Assembly (NCBI RefSeq): GCF_001655615.1
Contig: NZ_CP011567.1
Span: 1 to 64,000 of the forward strand
Length of the DNA stretch: 64,000 nucleotides
Reading direction: 5' to 3'
Source of the DNA: Pseudomonas sp. GR 6-02
GTDB lineage: Bacteria > Pseudomonadota > Gammaproteobacteria > Pseudomonadales > Pseudomonadaceae
Program-made: the position numbers and the translations under genes
The notes under the pieces: model-generated
The model's input: only the letters and a program-made list of their open reading frames with translations
What the model was told of the DNA's origin: nothing
Databases searched by the model: none
Part shown: positions 8,698-55,539 of the stretch, one piece after another
Numbering within the stretch: position 1 is the first letter of the stretch
How the letters are laid out: each line of letters starts with the position of its first letter

Positions 8698-9417
8698 TCA
8701 TTCGCTAGCGGTGGCTACGCTCTCAAGCCGATACCCATACCCGTAAATCGTCAGCAGTTGCCAACCGCGATCAGCCGTCAGACCCAGCTTGTTGCGCAGG
8801 CGATAAATATGAGTATCCAGAGGCCGGGAGGACACGATTTCTTCATGGGTCCAAAAGCGCTCATACAAGTATTCACGGGACAAAGGTCGGCCCAGATTGG
8901 CGAACAGGCAGCGGGCGAGACGGTATTCCCGTTCGGTCAGGCTGATGGGGGTGGAGGCACGGGTGACAGTGAGTTCGGCGTCGTCGAATTCGAGGTCATT
9001 GAATGTGAGTATTTCGGTGGCTGCCGCGCGTTGCAGTCCATGCCGACGAAGTACGGCGCTCACCCGAGCCATCAGCTCATTAGGACGAAACGGTTTGCTC
9101 ACGTAATCGTCGGCTCCGGCGTTCAAGGCCTGGACGATATCGCTTTCGGTATCGCGACTGGTGAGCATGATCGCGGCCGGTGGTGAGTCCATGTGTTCCC
9201 GGGTCCAGCGCAACAACGACAGACCGCTGATGTCGGGCAATTGCCAGTCGAGGATCAGCAGATCGAAAGTTTCCCGGCGAAGTTGCCGTAACAGGTCCTC
9301 TCCCCGCTCGAAACTGTGCAACGTCCACGTCTGCTCCCCCGTGACGGGGATCTGTCGCAGTGTCTGTTCCACCCGGCGGAGTTCGGCGGGTTCGTCATCC
9401 AGTATTGCGACACGCAT
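8698..9417 (-). CDS. OmpR/PhoB-type response regulator
   Basis: This is a 239-residue response regulator. The receiver domain (1-115) has the acidic pair DDE near residues 7-9, phospho-acceptor Asp57 in LLILDWQLPD, and Lys108 in YVSKPF. A winged-helix DNA-binding domain follows (about 135-235), with the tail LLTIYGYGYRLE. The start is placed at MRVAILDDE because it begins at the receiver domain and has AAGGA about 10 bases upstream; two further in-frame ATGs would add 6 or 44 residues without a good ribosome site. It is divergent from a lipoprotein, FecR and CHASE2-kinase run, and that kinase is its likely partner. Confidence 0.93.
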   Translation of the reverse strand: MRVAILDDEPAELRRVEQTLRQIPVTGEQTWTLHSFERGEDLLRQLRRETFDLLILDWQLPDISGLSLLRWTREHMDSPPAAIMLTSRDTESDIVQALNAGADDYVSKPFRPNELMARVSAVLRRHGLQRAAATEILTFNDLEFDDAELTVTRASTPISLTEREYRLARCLFANLGRPLSREYLYERFWTHEEIVSSRPLDTHIYRLRNKLGLTADRGWQLLTIYGYGYRLESVATASE

Positions 9418-9517
9418 GCCGAGTGCTTCCTTCATCTCGTAAGTGCAACGGTTAAGAAAATTCCTGCGGGAGTTTAGGCTGATTGGTTGAATCTGAACAA
9501 TTGTGGCGAATTGCTGT

Positions 9518-9543
9518 GAACTTCCCAAGTGTGGATACGCTGA
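9518..9543 (+). promoter_or_regulatory. Possible AlgU-type promoter before the WVF lipoprotein
   Basis: GAACTT at 9518-9523 is followed after 15 bases by GCTGA at 9539-9543, close to the AlgU consensus GAACTT, 16-17 bases, TCTGA. The spacing is one base short and one -10 base differs, so this is only a candidate. It lies about 60 bp before the lipoprotein start. Confidence 0.3.
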
Positions 9544-9605
9544 TATCACTTAGCCGGTAGGCGATGAATTATCGGCAGAATGCTCCAGAGGGACTGTGGG
9601 AAAAA

Positions 9606-9857
9606 ATGCGTCTAAAGATTATCTTTAACGGGTTTACAAGATTAACAGCGTTGATGTTGGCCGCGGGTCTCGGATTGGGATGCACCACGGTCCAGTCAAT
9701 ATCTGTCATCGAGCAGAATGTTGCACCGCGTTACTTCGGCCCGGCAGAGACGAACACGGTGATGGGCGACTCGCCAGGCTTTGCCCCGGTGCACTCCGCA
9801 CAGGTGGAAGCCGCCCAGCTCGACATTCGCTCGGCGCAACAACGTTGGGTGTTTTAG
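9606..9857 (+). CDS. Small lipoprotein with C-terminal RWVF
   Basis: This 83-residue protein has a lipoprotein signal peptide ending in lipobox LGLGC, with the acylated cysteine at residue 26. The residue after the cysteine is Thr, not Asp, which suggests the outer membrane. The start is set at MRLKII, with GGGA just upstream; a longer form from 9564 would add 14 residues in front of the signal peptide. The mature part is short and unrecognised, and it ends AQQRWVF. A C-terminal WVF is the AlgW-activating signal of MucE in P. aeruginosa. The gene lies upstream of the FecR and CHASE2-kinase genes and is divergent from the response regulator. Confidence 0.8.
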   Translation: MRLKIIFNGFTRLTALMLAAGLGLGCTTVQSISVIEQNVAPRYFGPAETNTVMGDSPGFAPVHSAQVEAAQLDIRSAQQRWVF

Positions 9858-10189: not shown

Positions 10190-11185
10190 ATGAACCTCAT
10201 GACCTTATTGCTCCCACGCCGTTCTGGCGTTTGTCTTTTACTGGTTGCCGGGTTGATGGAATTGTTCACCCAGAGTGCATCGGCGGCTGCCGCCTCGGCA
10301 AAACGTCTGCCTTATATCGATGATAATCAACAATGTCGCGGCCAACCGCTGCCCGCGACTGTCGAACATCTGACTGGCGAAGCCTGGAAGCTGGATGCCA
10401 AAGGTAAACAGACGCCACTGCAGGAAGGCATGCCGATCGACGAGCGGGAAGGCATCAAGACCTCGCCCTCGGCGTTTGTCAGCCTTTCCCTGGGTGATGG
10501 CTCGCGGGTAGTGCTGCCTTCCAGCTCCCAGATCACGCTACACCTCAATGAAGAACATTCGATCCCTCAGGTTATCCTCGAGCAGGGTCAGGTCGAGTCG
10601 TATGTGATCAAGCGTGCCAGCGACCATGATCGTTTTCAGATCGTCACGCCGGTCGGTGTACTGGGCGTACGGGGTACGCACTTCCGGGTGCGCAACGATG
10701 ATGGTGGCCAGGCATTACTGGAAGTGCTGAATGGGCAAGTGGCGGTCAATCGTGATGAGGAACTGTCGCGCCCCCGCTCTGCCCGCTCCACTGCCAAACG
10801 GACTCAGGGCCCTGAGGATGATGAAGTCCAGGTCATGGCCCGTCAGGGCTTGCGTATTCAGAAACAAGGCACGTTGACGCCAATCGACTTGTTACCTGCC
10901 CCACGTTTGTTGGGGCAGGCCGGTCAAACGGGTAATGTGCCTGTCTGGCAATTGATCATGAAGCCCATCGAAGGCGCCACGCGTTATCGGGCGCAAGTGG
11001 CCACCGACGCGAACTTTCTGGACATCAAGCAAGAGCAGTTTTCCAGCACGCCCGAGGTCAAATTCAGCGGGCTGAAAGCGTTGTTCTACCATGTTCGCCT
11101 GTCGGCGTATGACGCTCAGGGGTTAGAAGGAGAGACCGGGGTGTATGACATTTTCTATTACCCCAGGACCACGCGTGTCCAATAG
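10190..11185 (+). CDS. Periplasmic FecR-domain protein
   Basis: This 331-residue protein starts with a signal peptide (about 1-33, ending near SASA). A FecR domain follows (about 60-190, including GDGSRVVLP, VTPVGVLGVRGTHFRV and VLNGQVAVN). The C-terminal third (about 245-325) resembles a fibronectin-type fold, with repeated Y/W-containing strands such as ATRYRAQVATD. Classical FecR relays TonB-receptor signals to a sigma factor, but stand-alone exported FecR proteins without the anti-sigma part, like this one, are often beside CHASE2-domain sensors. It ends 18 bp before the CHASE2 kinase, so the two are probably co-transcribed. The ligand is unknown. Confidence 0.88.
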   Translation: MNLMTLLLPRRSGVCLLLVAGLMELFTQSASAAAASAKRLPYIDDNQQCRGQPLPATVEHLTGEAWKLDAKGKQTPLQEGMPIDEREGIKTSPSAFVSLSLGDGSRVVLPSSSQITLHLNEEHSIPQVILEQGQVESYVIKRASDHDRFQIVTPVGVLGVRGTHFRVRNDDGGQALLEVLNGQVAVNRDEELSRPRSARSTAKRTQGPEDDEVQVMARQGLRIQKQGTLTPIDLLPAPRLLGQAGQTGNVPVWQLIMKPIEGATRYRAQVATDANFLDIKQEQFSSTPEVKFSGLKALFYHVRLSAYDAQGLEGETGVYDIFYYPRTTRVQ

Positions 11186-11203: not shown

Positions 11204-13516
11204 ATGAAGGGCCGCCCAAGGAAGGACGGCCGCGAGCCGACCCAGGCTCAGCGGCTGTTTCGGCGGATGGTCCGCGAGTGGCTGTGGGTCAGTCTGATCC
11301 TGTTGCCGCTGACGGCAGTGCTGTCCATGACCCATGGCCTGGTCTTGAGCAATCTGCTGTACGACAACCTGCGTCGGCTGAGCCCGCTGCCGGTGGACCC
11401 ACGAATACTCATCGTCACGATCGATGACTACAGCTTGCAGCAGCTAGGCAAATGGCCTTGGTCGCGGGCCATGCACGCGCAGTTGCTTGATCGGCTAGGC
11501 GCTGCGAACGCCAAAGGCATTCTGTTCGACGTGATTTTCAGCGAGCCCGATAGCCATCCCGGCAACGATCAGCTTCTGGCCCAGGCGGCCTGCCGTGCCG
11601 GAAATGTCTTCGTGCCGTTGCTGCGTGAAGGCGTGGCGCGTTATGGACAGCCTTTGGGGGAAATTGAACCGGTGGCGCCACTGAGCCATTGCGTCAAAGG
11701 CATCGGGCACATCAATGCCCAAGCGGATGCCGACGGGATCGTGCGCAGTGTGTATTTAAGCGAAGGACCGGCACAACAAACACGCGCGCAACTGGCCTGG
11801 CTGCTGTACGAACAGACCCTTACCGACAAGGAGAATGTACCGATGCCCGGGACCCCGGCCCTGCCGTCGACGCAAGGCTGGCAGCGAGCCCACAAAATAC
11901 GGATTCCTTTCATCCGTTCCGATGCGGGTTTTCCCAGTGTGCCCTACGTCAGCGTCTTGCGCGGTGAAGTCCCGCCCGAATTGCTGCGCGATCGCTTGAT
12001 CCTGATCGGCTCCACCGCTCCAGGTTTGGGGGACCGTTACGTGACACCGCAATCGGCGAGCATGGGCACCACCCCGGGCATCGAAATTCAGGCAAATATC
12101 CTCAATGGGTTGCTGCAACAGCGCAACATTGTGGCTCTCGATGAACGTTTGGCGGCGTTGTTATCGGTGGTGATTGTCGGTGAGTTGCTGGGCCTTATGT
12201 TGGTGCGTCCGCGTCGCGCGTTATGGCTGACCCTGGGGGCAATGGCGGTCGCGCTGCTGGGTTCGAGCCTGCTGTTGCGTCTTGGTTGGTGGTGGTCACC
12301 GGCCGCGAGTCTGCTGGGTATGCTGTTGGGTTACCTGATCTGGAATTGGCGAAGGCTGAATGCGGTGCTCGCCTATTTCGGCTGGGAACTGGCGCGTCTG
12401 GACAGCGAGCCGAAAGTGTTTCCCGAACGCCGTCGGACCCAGGCCCCGGCTGGCGATGTGCTGCAAGGGCAAATCGTCGCGCTGGAACAGGCCATGAGCC
12501 GGACACGTGACACCCGGCGTTTCATTGCCGATGGCCTTGAGTACTTGCCGGTGGCGACGCTGATCAGCGATCCGAATGGGCGCATTCTGTTGGCCAACCG
12601 TAAGGCTCGGGAGATATTTTCCAGCAGCCTGGTGGGCGAGGAGATGCTCGAGCAACTGAGCGAGTTGGGTTACCCGGTGCCGTCCGATGGAACGCTGCCG
12701 GCGTTGTCGACCCTGGAGCTGCTGGAGTTTCGTGACACTCAGGCACGCAGCCTGCGTCTGGACCTGGCGCCGCTGTTGCCGGCCGAGGGCGACTCGGTGA
12801 TTGGCTGGTTACTGAGCCTCACTGACTTGAGCGTCGAACGGGACGCCGAGGAGCAGCGGGCTGTGTTGCTGCGTTTTCTGTCTCATGACCTGAGGGCCCC
12901 CCACTCGGCGATTCTGGCTTTGCTCGACGTTCAGCGGCATCAGATGTCTGGCGACACTCAAGTGTTCAGTCAGATCGAGTTACAAGTGCGCAAGGCGCTG
13001 AACCTGACCGAGGCCTTTGTGCAGTTGGCAAAGGCTGAATCCGAGGCCTATCAGTTTCAGCCGAGCATGTTCGCGATGTTGCTGCTCGATACTTTCGACC
13101 AGGCCTCGAGCATCGCTCATCTGAAGAACATTCAGTTGCTGCATGACCTCGACGAAGATGCTGAAGCGCTGGTCCTGGCCGATCAGTCGTTACTGACACG
13201 GGCACTGTTCAACCTGCTGGAAAACGCCATCAAGTACAGTCCGGCGGGTTCGCGGATCACCGTGCGGGTGAGTTGTACCGAGGGTTGGTTAACGTGCGAG
13301 ATCGTCGACCAGGGCCGAGGGATTGCCGTCGAAGAGCTTCCCGAGCTGTTCAGTCAGTATCGACGCTTTGCATCGGCTCACGGCAGTGACGGCCTGGGGT
13401 TGGGGTTGTCCATGGTCAAGGCGGTGGTGGATCGTCACGGCGGGCGGATTTCCTGTCATAGCGTGGTAGGACAAGGCACGACGTTCAGTGTCCAGCTACC
13501 CCTTTTGAGCGAGTGA
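11204..13516 (+). CDS. CHASE2-domain sensor histidine kinase
   Basis: This is a 770-residue membrane kinase. After one transmembrane helix (about 25-50) comes a large extracytoplasmic CHASE2 domain (about 55-305, starting at DPRILIVTIDDYSLQQLGKWPW). Three close hydrophobic helices follow (about 315-390), then a linker and a PAS-like segment (LEYLPVATLISDPNGRILLAN). The kinase core has the H-box FLSHDLRAPHSAI, N-box NLLENAIKYSP, and glycine boxes DQGRGI and GLGLGLSMVKAVV. It directly follows the FecR gene. The divergent OmpR-type regulator at 8698-9417 is the probable phosphorylation target. A terminator follows at 13539. Confidence 0.93.
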   Translation: MKGRPRKDGREPTQAQRLFRRMVREWLWVSLILLPLTAVLSMTHGLVLSNLLYDNLRRLSPLPVDPRILIVTIDDYSLQQLGKWPWSRAMHAQLLDRLGAANAKGILFDVIFSEPDSHPGNDQLLAQAACRAGNVFVPLLREGVARYGQPLGEIEPVAPLSHCVKGIGHINAQADADGIVRSVYLSEGPAQQTRAQLAWLLYEQTLTDKENVPMPGTPALPSTQGWQRAHKIRIPFIRSDAGFPSVPYVSVLRGEVPPELLRDRLILIGSTAPGLGDRYVTPQSASMGTTPGIEIQANILNGLLQQRNIVALDERLAALLSVVIVGELLGLMLVRPRRALWLTLGAMAVALLGSSLLLRLGWWWSPAASLLGMLLGYLIWNWRRLNAVLAYFGWELARLDSEPKVFPERRRTQAPAGDVLQGQIVALEQAMSRTRDTRRFIADGLEYLPVATLISDPNGRILLANRKAREIFSSSLVGEEMLEQLSELGYPVPSDGTLPALSTLELLEFRDTQARSLRLDLAPLLPAEGDSVIGWLLSLTDLSVERDAEEQRAVLLRFLSHDLRAPHSAILALLDVQRHQMSGDTQVFSQIELQVRKALNLTEAFVQLAKAESEAYQFQPSMFAMLLLDTFDQASSIAHLKNIQLLHDLDEDAEALVLADQSLLTRALFNLLENAIKYSPAGSRITVRVSCTEGWLTCEIVDQGRGIAVEELPELFSQYRRFASAHGSDGLGLGLSMVKAVVDRHGGRISCHSVVGQGTTFSVQLPLLSE

Positions 13517-51663: not shown

Positions 51664-51951
51664 TTAAAACACCCAGCGTTCCTGGGAGGGCGTCTCGTCC
51701 ACAGGCCGGGCCTGGTCGACGCCCATCATTCGTATTGAGGCGTTGTCAGCCGGGTTGCTGCTGACGGCGCTGAAGTGGCTTTGGGGGGGATGTGGAATCG
51801 AAAGGTGCACTGGCGCCGGTTGCGCGCTTTGCTCCCAACGCATGTACTGCTGGCCACCAATCAGGGTGATCAACAACGCCAACAGGGCAAACAAGCCTTG
51901 CTGGACATGCAGTGGCGAAAGACGCAATTGGGCGGCACTTTGGCGATTCAT
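51664..51951 (-). CDS. Membrane-anchored small protein ending in WVF (MucE-like signal)
   Basis: This 95-residue protein has a short basic N terminus, one hydrophobic helix (about 18-33) and a C-terminal part (36-95) rich in Pro, Ser, His and Gln, so its tail is probably periplasmic. It ends SQERWVF. In P. aeruginosa a C-terminal WVF on the small envelope protein MucE activates the protease AlgW, which cuts the anti-sigma factor MucA and frees AlgU. The rest of the sequence is not clearly related to MucE, so this is a shared signal only. The GAGGAACTT upstream supplies a ribosome site. It lies 440 bp from algB, on the opposite strand. Confidence 0.72.
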   Translation of the reverse strand: MNRQSAAQLRLSPLHVQQGLFALLALLITLIGGQQYMRWEQSAQPAPVHLSIPHPPQSHFSAVSSNPADNASIRMMGVDQARPVDETPSQERWVF

Positions 51952-52391
51952 CCTGAAGTTCCTCCCATACGGGTAGTGATCTTTGGCGGGCGCTGGTTCA
52001 TTAAATGCCCTGATTACCTAGACCATTGCAGCCTGCATGCCAGCTTTAATAAAGAATAAATACGATAGAAATCAAAAGGTTATTGTGTTTGTAGAAAACG
52101 TTTTAGACGCATCCTGCACGATGATCCGTTTGCAGTCGTGCGTAATGCACGATGAGTTCGCAGGCACTTTCAATATTTTTGGAATTGCGGGGAGGGCGTA
52201 GATGTCAGAAAGGGACGCAGGCAATCGCTGAAAGAATGGTCTGTAAATAAAAGTTCAAATAAATCAGCGTATTAGCTGAACTTTGAGTAGATAGATAGCC
52301 TGTTGTGGCTGGAATCGACCAGAATCAATCATGCAACTTGCCCGATTTTTCCGGGACTAACCAAGAACACCTATTAAAGGAGCGTAGGAAC
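51952..52391. other. Divergent regulatory region between the WVF gene and algB
   Basis: These 440 bases carry no gene and are AT-rich in several stretches. They contain two exact copies of TGCACGATGA, at 52115-52124 and 52146-52155 (31 bp apart), a dyad TCGTGC-GTAAT-GCACGA at 52136-52152, and a hairpin with arms AAAGTTCA and TGAACTTT at 52249-52283. The GAACTT in the right arm (52278-52283) could be a -35, but no good AlgU -10 follows at 16-17 bases. Promoters for algB and the WVF gene must both lie here. Confidence 0.6.
52115..52155. promoter_or_regulatory. Direct repeats and dyad, candidate operator upstream of algB
   Basis: Two direct copies of TGCACGATGA are 31 bp apart (about three helical turns). 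The second overlaps a dyad, TCGTGC-GTAAT-GCACGA. Regular spacing suggests a dimeric or cooperative regulator about 240-280 bp upstream of the algB start. Confidence 0.45.
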
Positions 52392-53738
52392 ATGGAATCA
52401 GCCACTGAGCATCAAGGCCGCATTCTGCTGGTGGACGACGAATCCGCCATCCTTCGAACCTTTCGCTATTGCCTCGAAGACGAAGGCTACAGCGTGGCCA
52501 CCGCGACCAGCGCTGCTCAGGCCGAAGCCTTGTTGCAGCGTCAGGTTTTCGATCTGTGCTTCCTCGATTTGCGCCTGGGTGAAGACAATGGCCTCGATGT
52601 GCTGGCCCAGATGCGAATTCAGGCGCCCTGGATGCGTGTGGTGATCGTCACCGCTCACTCGGCCGTAGACACTGCCGTGGATGCAATTCAGGCCGGTGCC
52701 GCCGACTATCTGGTCAAACCTTGCAGCCCCGATCAGTTACGTCTGGCCACCGCCAAACAGCTGGAAGTGCGGCAACTCTCGGCACGCCTGGAAGCCCTCG
52801 AAGGTGAAGTGCGTAAACCCAAGGAGGGGCTGGACTCCCACAGCCCGGCGATGAAAGTGGTGCTTGAAACCGCACGCCAGGTCGCCAGTACCGACGCCAA
52901 CATTCTGATTCTCGGAGAGTCCGGCACCGGTAAAGGTGAGCTGTCACAGGCCATTCATGGCTGGAGCAAACGCCAGAAGAAATCCTGCATCACCATCAAC
53001 TGCCCCTCCCTGACAGCGGAATTGATGGACAGTGAACTCTTCGGCCACAGCCGTGGCGCGTTCACCGGTGCCAGCGAAAGCACCTTGGGGCGTGTCAATC
53101 AGGCTGATGGCGGAACGTTGTTTCTCGACGAGATCGGCGATTTTCCCCTGACCTTGCAGCCAAAGTTGCTGCGTTTCATCCAGGACAAGGAATACGAGCG
53201 TGTGGGTGACCCGGTGACCCGTCGCGCCGACGTGCGAATCCTCGCGGCTACCAACCTCAACCTTGAAGACATGGTCCGCGACGGGCGCTTTCGTGAGGAT
53301 TTGCTCTATAGGCTGAACGTCATCACTTTGCACCTGCCGCCGCTTCGCGAACGCAGGGAAGACATCCTGAACCTGGCTGACCGTTTCCTGGCGCGCTTCG
53401 TCAAGGAATACTCGCGTCCGGCCCGGTGTTTCAGCGACGAGGCCCGCGAGGCGCTGCTCAGCTACCGCTGGCCCGGCAATATCCGCGAGCTGCGCAACGT
53501 GGTGGAACGGGCGAGCATTATTTGTCCGCAGGAGCGGGTCGAGATCAGCCACTTGGGCATGGCCGAAGCTCCGACCAACAATACGCCACGCATTGGCGCC
53601 GCGTTGAGCCTGGATGAGTTGGAGAAAGCCCACATCGGCGCGGTCCTTGCCACCGCCGATACCCTGGATCAGGCGGCCAAGACCCTGGGTATCGACGCCT
53701 CGACCCTGTACCGCAAACGCAAGCAGTACAACCTGTGA
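52392..53738 (+). CDS. algB: NtrC-type response regulator AlgB
   Basis: AlgB activates alginate genes in P. aeruginosa and is the partner of KinB. The 448-residue protein has a receiver domain (about 10-125; phospho-acceptor Asp in LCFLDLRLGED), an AAA+ domain with Walker A GESGTGKGEL, the sigma-54-contact motif GAFTGA, and a C-terminal Fis-type helix-turn-helix. The unusual Walker A ending GKGE is shared with P. aeruginosa AlgB. The start MESATEHQG is preceded by AGGAGCG. It is followed 10 bp later by kinB. Confidence 0.97.
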   Translation: MESATEHQGRILLVDDESAILRTFRYCLEDEGYSVATATSAAQAEALLQRQVFDLCFLDLRLGEDNGLDVLAQMRIQAPWMRVVIVTAHSAVDTAVDAIQAGAADYLVKPCSPDQLRLATAKQLEVRQLSARLEALEGEVRKPKEGLDSHSPAMKVVLETARQVASTDANILILGESGTGKGELSQAIHGWSKRQKKSCITINCPSLTAELMDSELFGHSRGAFTGASESTLGRVNQADGGTLFLDEIGDFPLTLQPKLLRFIQDKEYERVGDPVTRRADVRILAATNLNLEDMVRDGRFREDLLYRLNVITLHLPPLRERREDILNLADRFLARFVKEYSRPARCFSDEAREALLSYRWPGNIRELRNVVERASIICPQERVEISHLGMAEAPTNNTPRIGAALSLDELEKAHIGAVLATADTLDQAAKTLGIDASTLYRKRKQYNL

Positions 53739-53748
53739 GCTGCACCCG

Positions 53749-55539
53749 ATGAAACTGGCGATGACATTGCGCACCCGGTTGTTCCTGAGTATTTCAGCCT
53801 TGATCACCGTGGCGCTGCTCGGGCTGTTGCTAGGCCTGGTCAGCGTGATGCAGATGGCTGGTACACAGGAGGCCCTGATCCGTGACAACTTCGTCAGGCT
53901 GGATCTGGGATTGAAGCTGCGCCAGACCCTGGGTGATCAACTGATCATCATGCTCGGCGAGAAGCCTGATCCCGCGGCGCTCGAGGCATCCCGACAGCAT
54001 TACCTCGAATTGCTCGATGAAGGCATTGCTCGCGAGCCGTCCAGCGAGGGCGCCCAGTACGGTTTCAAAAAGGCCAAGGCTGATTACCAGAGCTTTCTGC
54101 AGGCCTACGATCTTTCCCGCGATACGGCACAGGTGCTCACTGGGGGCGGGGATCTCACGGAAAAATTCAACACGCTGCGCAACGGTTTGATCGCCGAACA
54201 GAAGCGCGCGCTGGATAACATCAGTGAAACCGAACGCCAGGCCCGGGACCGCGCGTTGCTGATTGCCGGCCTGCTCGGGTTGATCGGGGTGGGGGTGCTG
54301 TTCATCGGGTTCATTACCGCCCATGCGATCGCCCAGCGTTTCGGAGCTCCGATCGAGGCCCTGGCGGCGGCCGCTGACAACATCGGCCAAGGCAATTTCG
54401 AAGTGACTCTGCCGATTTCCTCCGCAGTGGAAATGAACCAGCTGACCCGACGCTTCGGAATCATGGCCGAGGCCCTGCGACAGCACCAAGCCACTAATAT
54501 CGACGAGCTACTCGCCGGACAGCAGCGTTTGCAAGCAGTGCTCGATAGCATCGACGACGGTTTGCTGATCATTGATCGTCAAGGTCAGCTCGAGCACCTC
54601 AACCCGGTGGCTCAGCGCCAGTTAGGCTGGGACACCGAGCGTCTCGGCCAAGGGCTGGGCACGGCACTTGAGCGTCCCGAACTGGATGAACAACTGCATC
54701 TGGTGCTGCGCGGCGGCACCCTGGAACGAGTGCCGGACGACCTGAGCATCGAGGTTGACGGGGAGTCGCGATTGCTGACGTATAGCCTGACGCCGGTCAG
54801 CCATACCCAGGGTCATATTCTCGGCGCCGTGATGGTGTTGCATGACGTCACCGAGCAGCGTGCCTTCGAACGGGTGCGCAGCGAGTTCGTCTTGCGTGCT
54901 TCCCATGAGTTACGCACGCCGGTCACCGGGATGCACATGGCATTCGGCCTGTTCCGCGAGCGGGCGCATTTTGCCGAGGATTCCCGTGAGGCCGACTTGC
55001 TGAACACCGTGAATGAAGAAATGCAGCGCTTGATGCAGTTGATCAACGACCTGCTGAATTTCTCTCGCTATCAGAATGGCCTGCAAAAACTCACCCTGGC
55101 GCCGTGCTCCATCAAAGATTTACTGGAGCAGGCCCAGGCACGCTTTGCCGGCCCGGCGCAGGAGAAGGGCATTGAGCTGTTGGTGGAAGTGCAGGGAACG
55201 TTGCCACGGCTGCAAGCCGATCAGGCGCAACTGGAGCGGGTGCTCGATAACCTGATCGACAACGCCTTGCGTCATACCTCCCGCGACGGGCTGATACGTT
55301 TGCAGGCTCGACGTCATGGGGAGCGGGTGATTATCAGTGTCGAAGACAACGGCGAAGGCATTGCCTACAGCCAGCAAGGAAGGATATTCGAGCCTTTTGT
55401 TCAGGTCGGCCGCAAGAAGGGCGGCGCCGGGCTCGGTCTGGCGCTGTGCAAGGAGATCGTGCAGTTGCACGGTGGGCGGATGGGCGTGTATTCACGGCCG
55501 GGGCAGGGTTCGCAGTTCTACATGGCGCTGGCGGTATAA
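53749..55539 (+). CDS. kinB: Sensor histidine kinase KinB
   Basis: KinB is the membrane sensor for AlgB. The 596-residue protein has a first helix (about 10-32), a periplasmic helical sensor region, a second helix (about 165-190), HAMP and PAS-like segments, then a kinase core with H-box ASHELRTPVTGMH and ATP-binding boxes VEDNGEGI and GAGLGLALCKEI. The length is close to P. aeruginosa KinB (about 595 residues). In that species loss of kinB causes AlgW-dependent destruction of MucA and alginate production. It ends 12 bp from the convergent EAL gene. Confidence 0.96.
   Translation: MKLAMTLRTRLFLSISALITVALLGLLLGLVSVMQMAGTQEALIRDNFVRLDLGLKLRQTLGDQLIIMLGEKPDPAALEASRQHYLELLDEGIAREPSSEGAQYGFKKAKADYQSFLQAYDLSRDTAQVLTGGGDLTEKFNTLRNGLIAEQKRALDNISETERQARDRALLIAGLLGLIGVGVLFIGFITAHAIAQRFGAPIEALAAAADNIGQGNFEVTLPISSAVEMNQLTRRFGIMAEALRQHQATNIDELLAGQQRLQAVLDSIDDGLLIIDRQGQLEHLNPVAQRQLGWDTERLGQGLGTALERPELDEQLHLVLRGGTLERVPDDLSIEVDGESRLLTYSLTPVSHTQGHILGAVMVLHDVTEQRAFERVRSEFVLRASHELRTPVTGMHMAFGLFRERAHFAEDSREADLLNTVNEEMQRLMQLINDLLNFSRYQNGLQKLTLAPCSIKDLLEQAQARFAGPAQEKGIELLVEVQGTLPRLQADQAQLERVLDNLIDNALRHTSRDGLIRLQARRHGERVIISVEDNGEGIAYSQQGRIFEPFVQVGRKKGGAGLGLALCKEIVQLHGGRMGVYSRPGQGSQFYMALAV

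Follow-up and report, generated by a model that had tools for sequence, protein, structure and literature searches.

The 64-kb window analysed here, the first part of a 6.5-Mb single-contig Pseudomonas genome, carries a small gene whose product is likely an orthologue of MucE, judged from its sequence and surroundings, and not a new kind of reporter that merely resembles MucE. We thus seem to be dealing with a familiar type of protein where it was not expected, likely masked by sequence drift. We directly established the gene itself, its genomic slot and the conservation of its C-terminal tail, as well as the presence of a matching AlgW and of the algU-mucA-mucB-mucD cluster. We consider it highly probable that the gene is the mucE of this strain, and that the exported RWVF tail of its product unlocks AlgW, leading to the cleavage of MucA and the release of AlgU.

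The first-pass annotation had described an ORF of 83 residues ending in AQQRWVF, neighboured by genes for a response regulator, a FecR protein and a CHASE2 kinase, and we found both the ORF and these neighbours as described (Table 1). An alternative upstream start of the ORF is possible at 9564; 83 residues is the most frequent length among the close relatives of the window protein. Neither the Pfam nor the NCBIfam models matched the 83-aa protein, and the curated family libraries contained no match for the MucE of P. aeruginosa either. The protein is short and likely disordered.

Table 1. Features of the window discussed in the text, with their positions and strands.
Feature	Position	Strand	Remark
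OmpR-type response regulator, divergent, counterpart of PA4032	8698..9417	-	83% identity to the MucE-bearing locus L066
Intergenic element GAATCTGAACAATTGTG, putative operator/promoter of the divergent pair	9489..9505	+	Conserved across loci
GAACTT, proposed AlgU -35	9518..9523	+	String present, not conserved
mucE-like gene	9606..9857	+	83 aa, MRLKIIF...AQQRWVF; ORF, homologues, genomic slot
Hydrophobic export/anchor segment ending LGLGC (possible lipobox, Cys26)	9642..9683	+	Cysteine kept in the window clade
GFAP core motif	9777..9788	+	Common to all 13 rows of the distant-relative alignment
C-terminal RWVF, predicted AlgW PDZ ligand	9843..9854	+	RW[VI]F in 45/45 slot genes; crystallised decapeptide SVRDELRWVF
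FecR-domain protein, counterpart of PA4035	10190..11185	+	Present in 45/45 mucE-bearing loci
CHASE2-PAS histidine kinase, counterpart of PA4036	11204..13516	+	65% identity to the L066 kinase
Small protein of 95 aa, the second with RWVF; hydrophobic N-terminal segment, C-terminus QERWVF	51664..51951	-	Divergent from algB
NtrC-type response regulator, called AlgB as it precedes kinB	52305..53738	+	Start as in the ORF list
KinB sensor kinase	53749..55539	+	Pfam KinB_sensor E 5.5e-31

The slot occupied by the gene is also found in G566, a genome of the P. aeruginosa type that belongs to a different genus from the window in the taxonomic scheme used. Its locus, L066, shows the order divergent response regulator, mucE, (aqpZ), FecR protein and CHASE2 kinase, and the window shows the same order without aqpZ. 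The regulator, FecR protein and kinase of L066 are 83%, 64% and 65% identical, respectively, to those of the window. Between the regulator and FecR genes of L066 lie an aquaporin gene, which we take to be aqpZ, and an ORF of 89 aa ending in SVRDETRWVF, 99% identical to the NCBI entry 'mucoid induction factor MucE [Pseudomonas aeruginosa group]'. Sixteen proteins were found with this L066 MucE, six ending in RWVF, one in RWIF and nine, variants or fragments, ending otherwise; P0050, the member from P. aeruginosa (78%), terminates in SVRDELRWVF, the decapeptide seen bound to AlgW in crystals (PMC8545111). The literature, in its accessible parts, agrees on the neighbours: mucE is PA4033 (PMC3819740), PA4032 and PA4036 encode a response regulator and a sensor, respectively (PMC6605022, PMC5812489), and InterPro uses the name PA4035 for the FecR family at the locus (PMC5192318). 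Given the MucE-bearing slot of L066 and this agreement, the window gene can be regarded as a positional orthologue of mucE.

The body of the protein appears to keep a trace of the same relationship. Distant relatives, 32-42% identical to the window protein, have the GFAP motif and the tail in common with it. When we aligned the profile of P. aeruginosa-type MucE (four sequences) with that of the window family by hhalign, the probability was 94.5% with the tail included and 33% after removal of the last five columns (E 4.6e-4, colinear, with only four sequences on the P. aeruginosa side), and, likewise without the tail, five column shuffles scored 0.3-0.6% and the unrelated algB-linked family described below scored 0.4%. 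A profile search started from the window family did not retrieve P. aeruginosa MucE. Body homology of this kind probably backs the orthology, albeit as modest evidence by itself.

To place the gene in the window genus, we used the kinase, which was found in 171 of 398 genomes. We surveyed 104 loci with the regulator, namely the window, three named contigs (L002-L004) and 100 further stretches, drawn from 91 genomes with a full-length or nearly full-length kinase and seven with shortened matches among the 171; loci of G566, G612, G579, G588 and G622 and the named contig L003 were further members of the survey. The gene occupies the slot in 42 of the 91 genomes and in none of the seven. A long slot (at least 680 bp from the regulator to the next gene) is present in 47 loci, and 45 of these contain, on the strand of the kinase gene, an ORF whose product ends in RW[VI]F. 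No such ORF occurs in L067 and L172, the most divergent of the long-slot loci, or in any of the 57 loci with shorter spaces (up to 534 bp); for L128, L138 and L142 the computed gap is negative, since only the end of FecR matched. The FecR gene accompanies mucE in all 45 loci, and among the 59 loci without mucE it was found in 30 and absent in 29. aqpZ adjoins mucE in seven of the 45. Judged by position, the gene is present in at least 42 of the 398 genomes, whereas a profile of close relatives detects it in 12 (the window's own included) and consequently misses most of them. The pattern DELRWVF-stop had no match in the 398 genomes, probably because the taxonomic scheme assigns P. aeruginosa to a different genus. 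Of 25 genomes from the genus of G566, one, G566 itself, has the regulator at E <= 1e-80.

The mucE-like gene is dispensable, as it is missing from 59 of the 104 loci that retain the regulator. One of these is L077 (G337), near the window, in which a deletion of ~290 bp between the regulator and FecR removes the gene and the kinase is 92% identical; this locus amounts to a natural mucE knock-out in a close relative. On a tree of 103 regulators (the fragment in L106 was left out), seven changes in the presence of mucE are needed, of which only two are forced by well-supported branches. We also noticed that, in the kinases of L068, L069 and L173-L177, the match to the query begins only at about residue 300, the CHASE2 part being missing, and that these loci have neither FecR nor mucE; more such shortened kinases occur among the 171 genomes.

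Conservation of the terminal WVF in homologues had been set beforehand as a check that could refute the proposal of the first-pass annotation, and the tail proved to be strongly conserved. All 14 rows of a protein search (the query and its 13 closest homologues) end in QRWVF. Among 48 homologues from a profile search, including P0001 and P0012, which are approximately the window protein itself, 45 end in RWVF, one in LWVF, one in RYVF and one, a fragment, otherwise. The slot genes end in RW[VI]F without exception (35 RWVF and 10 RWIF). The ORF search in the slot required only an aromatic-aliphatic-aromatic end, and the fixed Arg and Trp were therefore not built into the result. The codons of the tail vary across the 45 genes (four for Arg, seven for Val/Ile, both for Phe and three stops). 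In 19 representatives sharing less than 60% identity, the mean pairwise identity of the bodies is 21%, R, W and F are present in all 19, and position -1 is V or I. Counting the bare motif is less informative: R-W-V-F-stop, in a pattern that also accepts TGG as the last codon, has four matches in the 6.5-Mb genome versus two in the reversed control, and W-V/I-F-stop has 51 versus 36. Because these counts are not clearly above the control, it is conservation, not frequency, that bears the argument. These comparisons support the proposed AlgW-type C-terminal signal on a small, probably exported protein. Elsewhere in the genome, a protein that is presumably an OprD-like porin (L198; G000, ~963600, reverse strand) ends in MWIF, making it a candidate for an ordinary AlgW signal.

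How the protein is held in the envelope bears on the alternative that survives best, albeit one we regard as quite unlikely: the protein would be an outer-membrane lipoprotein, its tail would meet AlgW only upon failure of lipoprotein export, and an AlgU promoter would provide positive feedback. In its favour, the hydrophobic segment of the window protein closes with LGLGC (residues 22-26), which fits the general lipobox pattern used for comparison, with Gly for Leu at -3, and the cysteine is nearly invariant in close relatives. The same cysteine is mostly missing in the 12 aligned distant relatives, and a convincing lipobox is present in only five of the 45 slot genes (the window, L002-L004 and L084), whereas all 45 retain the tail; the lipobox script gave six further matches, of which four fall within the hydrophobic segment and two beyond it, and these were not counted. 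On these grounds a general lipoprotein model was rejected for the family. The earlier description of the product as a lipoprotein fits the window clade with its LGLGC and Cys26 and does not extend to the whole family, and an outer-membrane sensor of export failure is unlikely as a general mechanism. In the window clade itself, a role as a lipoprotein-export sensor is possible. The hydrophobic segment ends 54 residues before the C-terminus in the window protein, and likewise 54 residues before it in the L066 MucE.

The feedback part of this alternative draws on the AlgU-dependent transcription of mucE in P. aeruginosa, as given in the accessible text of PMC3819740, and on a possible AlgU promoter that the first-pass annotation had placed at 9518-9543. 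The GAACTT string is indeed there, but L003 has GGATTT and L004 has GAATTT in its place, and GAACTT occurs anywhere upstream in only two of the 45 slot genes. The strict consensus GAACTT-N15-18-TCNRA was found upstream of none of the 45 (0.06 in shuffles), and a relaxed consensus upstream of two, versus 1.75 in mononucleotide shuffles; the MucE-bearing L066 has no AlgU site by the strict scan and one by the relaxed scan. An AlgU promoter was accordingly rejected as a conserved feature of the family, and AlgU feedback may act via another sequence or be restricted to P. aeruginosa.

A different stretch of the intergenic region is conserved. The element GAATCTGAANAATTRTG, or a near form of it, occurs in 84 of the 104 loci by a strict pattern and in 92 by a looser one, irrespective of mucE, and the window contains one match at up to two mismatches, versus 0.05 expected. 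As far as can be judged from its sequence and position, this element (9489-9505) may serve the divergent pair as operator or promoter. In several of the loci without mucE, it runs on into the inverted repeat GAATCTG...CAGATTC.

The predicted receptor of the tail is well conserved in this genome. Its AlgW (L088) aligns over approximately the whole length with the PDB AlgW chains 7co2, 7co3 and 7co5, and of the 16 positions that the accessible text of PMC8545111 names, 13 are identical (D149, E151, D153, Y212, S227, E266, R279, W281, L282, E285, M342, R347 and R374). The remaining three positions differ (V284I, K287Q and Y311F), and affinity may differ as a result. In the contacts reported between AlgW and the peptide, Arg -3 pairs with E285 and Glu -5 with K287 (PMC8545111). 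Position 287, Lys in P. aeruginosa, is Gln here, as is position -5 of the window tail, while Arg -3 still faces Glu285. A row of Pfam matches (ECF sigma factor, RseA_N/C, MucB_RseB and trypsin-PDZ protease) reproduces the order algU-mucA-mucB-mucD. The MucD-like protease of the genome possesses two PDZ stretches, and PDZ proteases of the Prc, CtpA and MucD type also read non-polar C-termini; the tail could on this basis be a degradation or recognition signal for one of these proteases, not an activator of AlgW. The fixed Arg -3 and Trp -2 nevertheless match the AlgW contacts in PMC8545111, with E285 and W281 kept, and P. aeruginosa MucE, the positional counterpart, acts via AlgW according to PMC3819740; we therefore hold this second alternative to be improbable, more so than the first. 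That the ORF is spurious or a neutral remnant with an accidental tail is hardly credible, as, for all its hypervariable body, its lack of a Pfam or NCBIfam match and its absence from 59 of 104 loci, the tail is held at the amino-acid level in all 45 slot genes despite the variation in codons.

Our preferred reading, in which the window gene is mucE, would operate as follows, the mechanism being very likely that of MucE on the strength of these comparisons. We infer that the short protein is exported and held at the membrane by its N-terminal hydrophobic segment, in the window clade possibly by a lipidated Cys26, so that about 54 residues would extend into the periplasm and end in RWVF. With enough free tail near the inner membrane, the tail would bind the PDZ domain of AlgW, Phe 0 and Trp -2 entering hydrophobic pockets and Arg -3 reaching Glu285; this binding would activate AlgW by unlocking it, whereupon MucA would be cleaved and AlgU released. 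The divergent response regulator, together with the FecR protein and the CHASE2 kinase, probably determines the amount of MucE, a two-component control suggested by the position of the genes and by the shared intergenic element, which is also present in loci without mucE.

The window encodes a second small protein with the same tail, divergent from algB and kinB. Relatives of this algB-linked protein were found in 66 of 144 genomes searched, all of the window genus. In the 30 loci fetched (the window's included) out of the 66 matched genomes, 29 tails read RWVF and one RWMF, and the start of an AlgB-like receiver domain lies divergently upstream in every one of the 30. The hhalign probability between this family and the window MucE family fell from 86% with whole profiles to 0.4% without the tail; the likeness is therefore that of the tail alone, and homology of the two was rejected. 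All 14 of the mucE-bearing genomes covered by the search also have the algB-linked protein. In G566, of the P. aeruginosa type, we found no second ORF ending in RW[VI]F with a CGN arginine codon, and the algB-linked protein would thus represent a lineage difference. In P. aeruginosa, KinB is reported to act on alginate through AlgW-dependent proteolysis of MucA (cited in PMC6979010, in its accessible part). Tentatively, and with more doubt than confidence, we propose that two two-component systems, CHASE2/FecR and AlgB/KinB, feed AlgU via unrelated AlgW activators bearing the same tail, and that the MucE of the window clade is in addition a lipoprotein and possibly a reporter of export failure. 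If this is the case, the algB-linked protein would directly explain, in these species, a link between KinB and AlgW like that reported in P. aeruginosa, and how KinB could work via AlgW can be tested directly on this protein.

MucE orthologues have been said to exist only in P. aeruginosa (PMC3819740); the accessible parts of other papers describe mucE as absent in Azotobacter vinelandii (PMC6979010) and missing in Pseudomonas mendocina (PMC7832885), and a table lists MucE as 'nd' for P. putida (PMC12112638). In the open-access literature, as far as its texts were accessible, we came across no description of MucE from species other than P. aeruginosa, nor of the algB-linked RWVF protein. With the slot gene and its tail in at least 42 of 398 genomes, dedicated AlgW ligands look to be a more widespread trait of Pseudomonas, linked to a two-component locus that has received little attention, and they can be studied in harmless soil pseudomonads. 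In the MucE family, the body has drifted to ~21% identity around four fixed residues.

Among known systems, the BiofilmReg operon of Burkholderia contaminans (PMC5192318) similarly combines a response regulator, a FecR protein ('PA4035') and a CHASE2 kinase; unlike the window locus, it comes without any mention of mucE in the accessible text, which gives the PAO1 version as the FecR protein and kinase only. The algB-linked protein is, like the window MucE, small, with an N-terminal hydrophobic segment and an RWVF tail, but its body is unrelated. The tails of outer-membrane proteins are normally buried inside the folded barrel. As ligands of DegS/AlgW, such proteins share with the window protein a C-terminal aromatic-x-Phe PDZ signal (PMC8545111, in its accessible part), whereas the window protein is not large enough to form a barrel and its RW[VI]F is fixed. 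The closest system is MucE (PA4033) itself: the window protein differs from it in an almost unrecognisable body, a possible lipobox, the lack of aqpZ and of a conserved AlgU promoter, and Gln for Glu at -5 facing an AlgW with Gln for Lys at 287, but it resembles MucE in its slot beside a PA4032-type regulator, a PA4035-type FecR protein and a PA4036-type kinase, in its small size and N-terminal hydrophobic segment, in its RWVF tail and, it appears, in a weak, colinear homology of the body.
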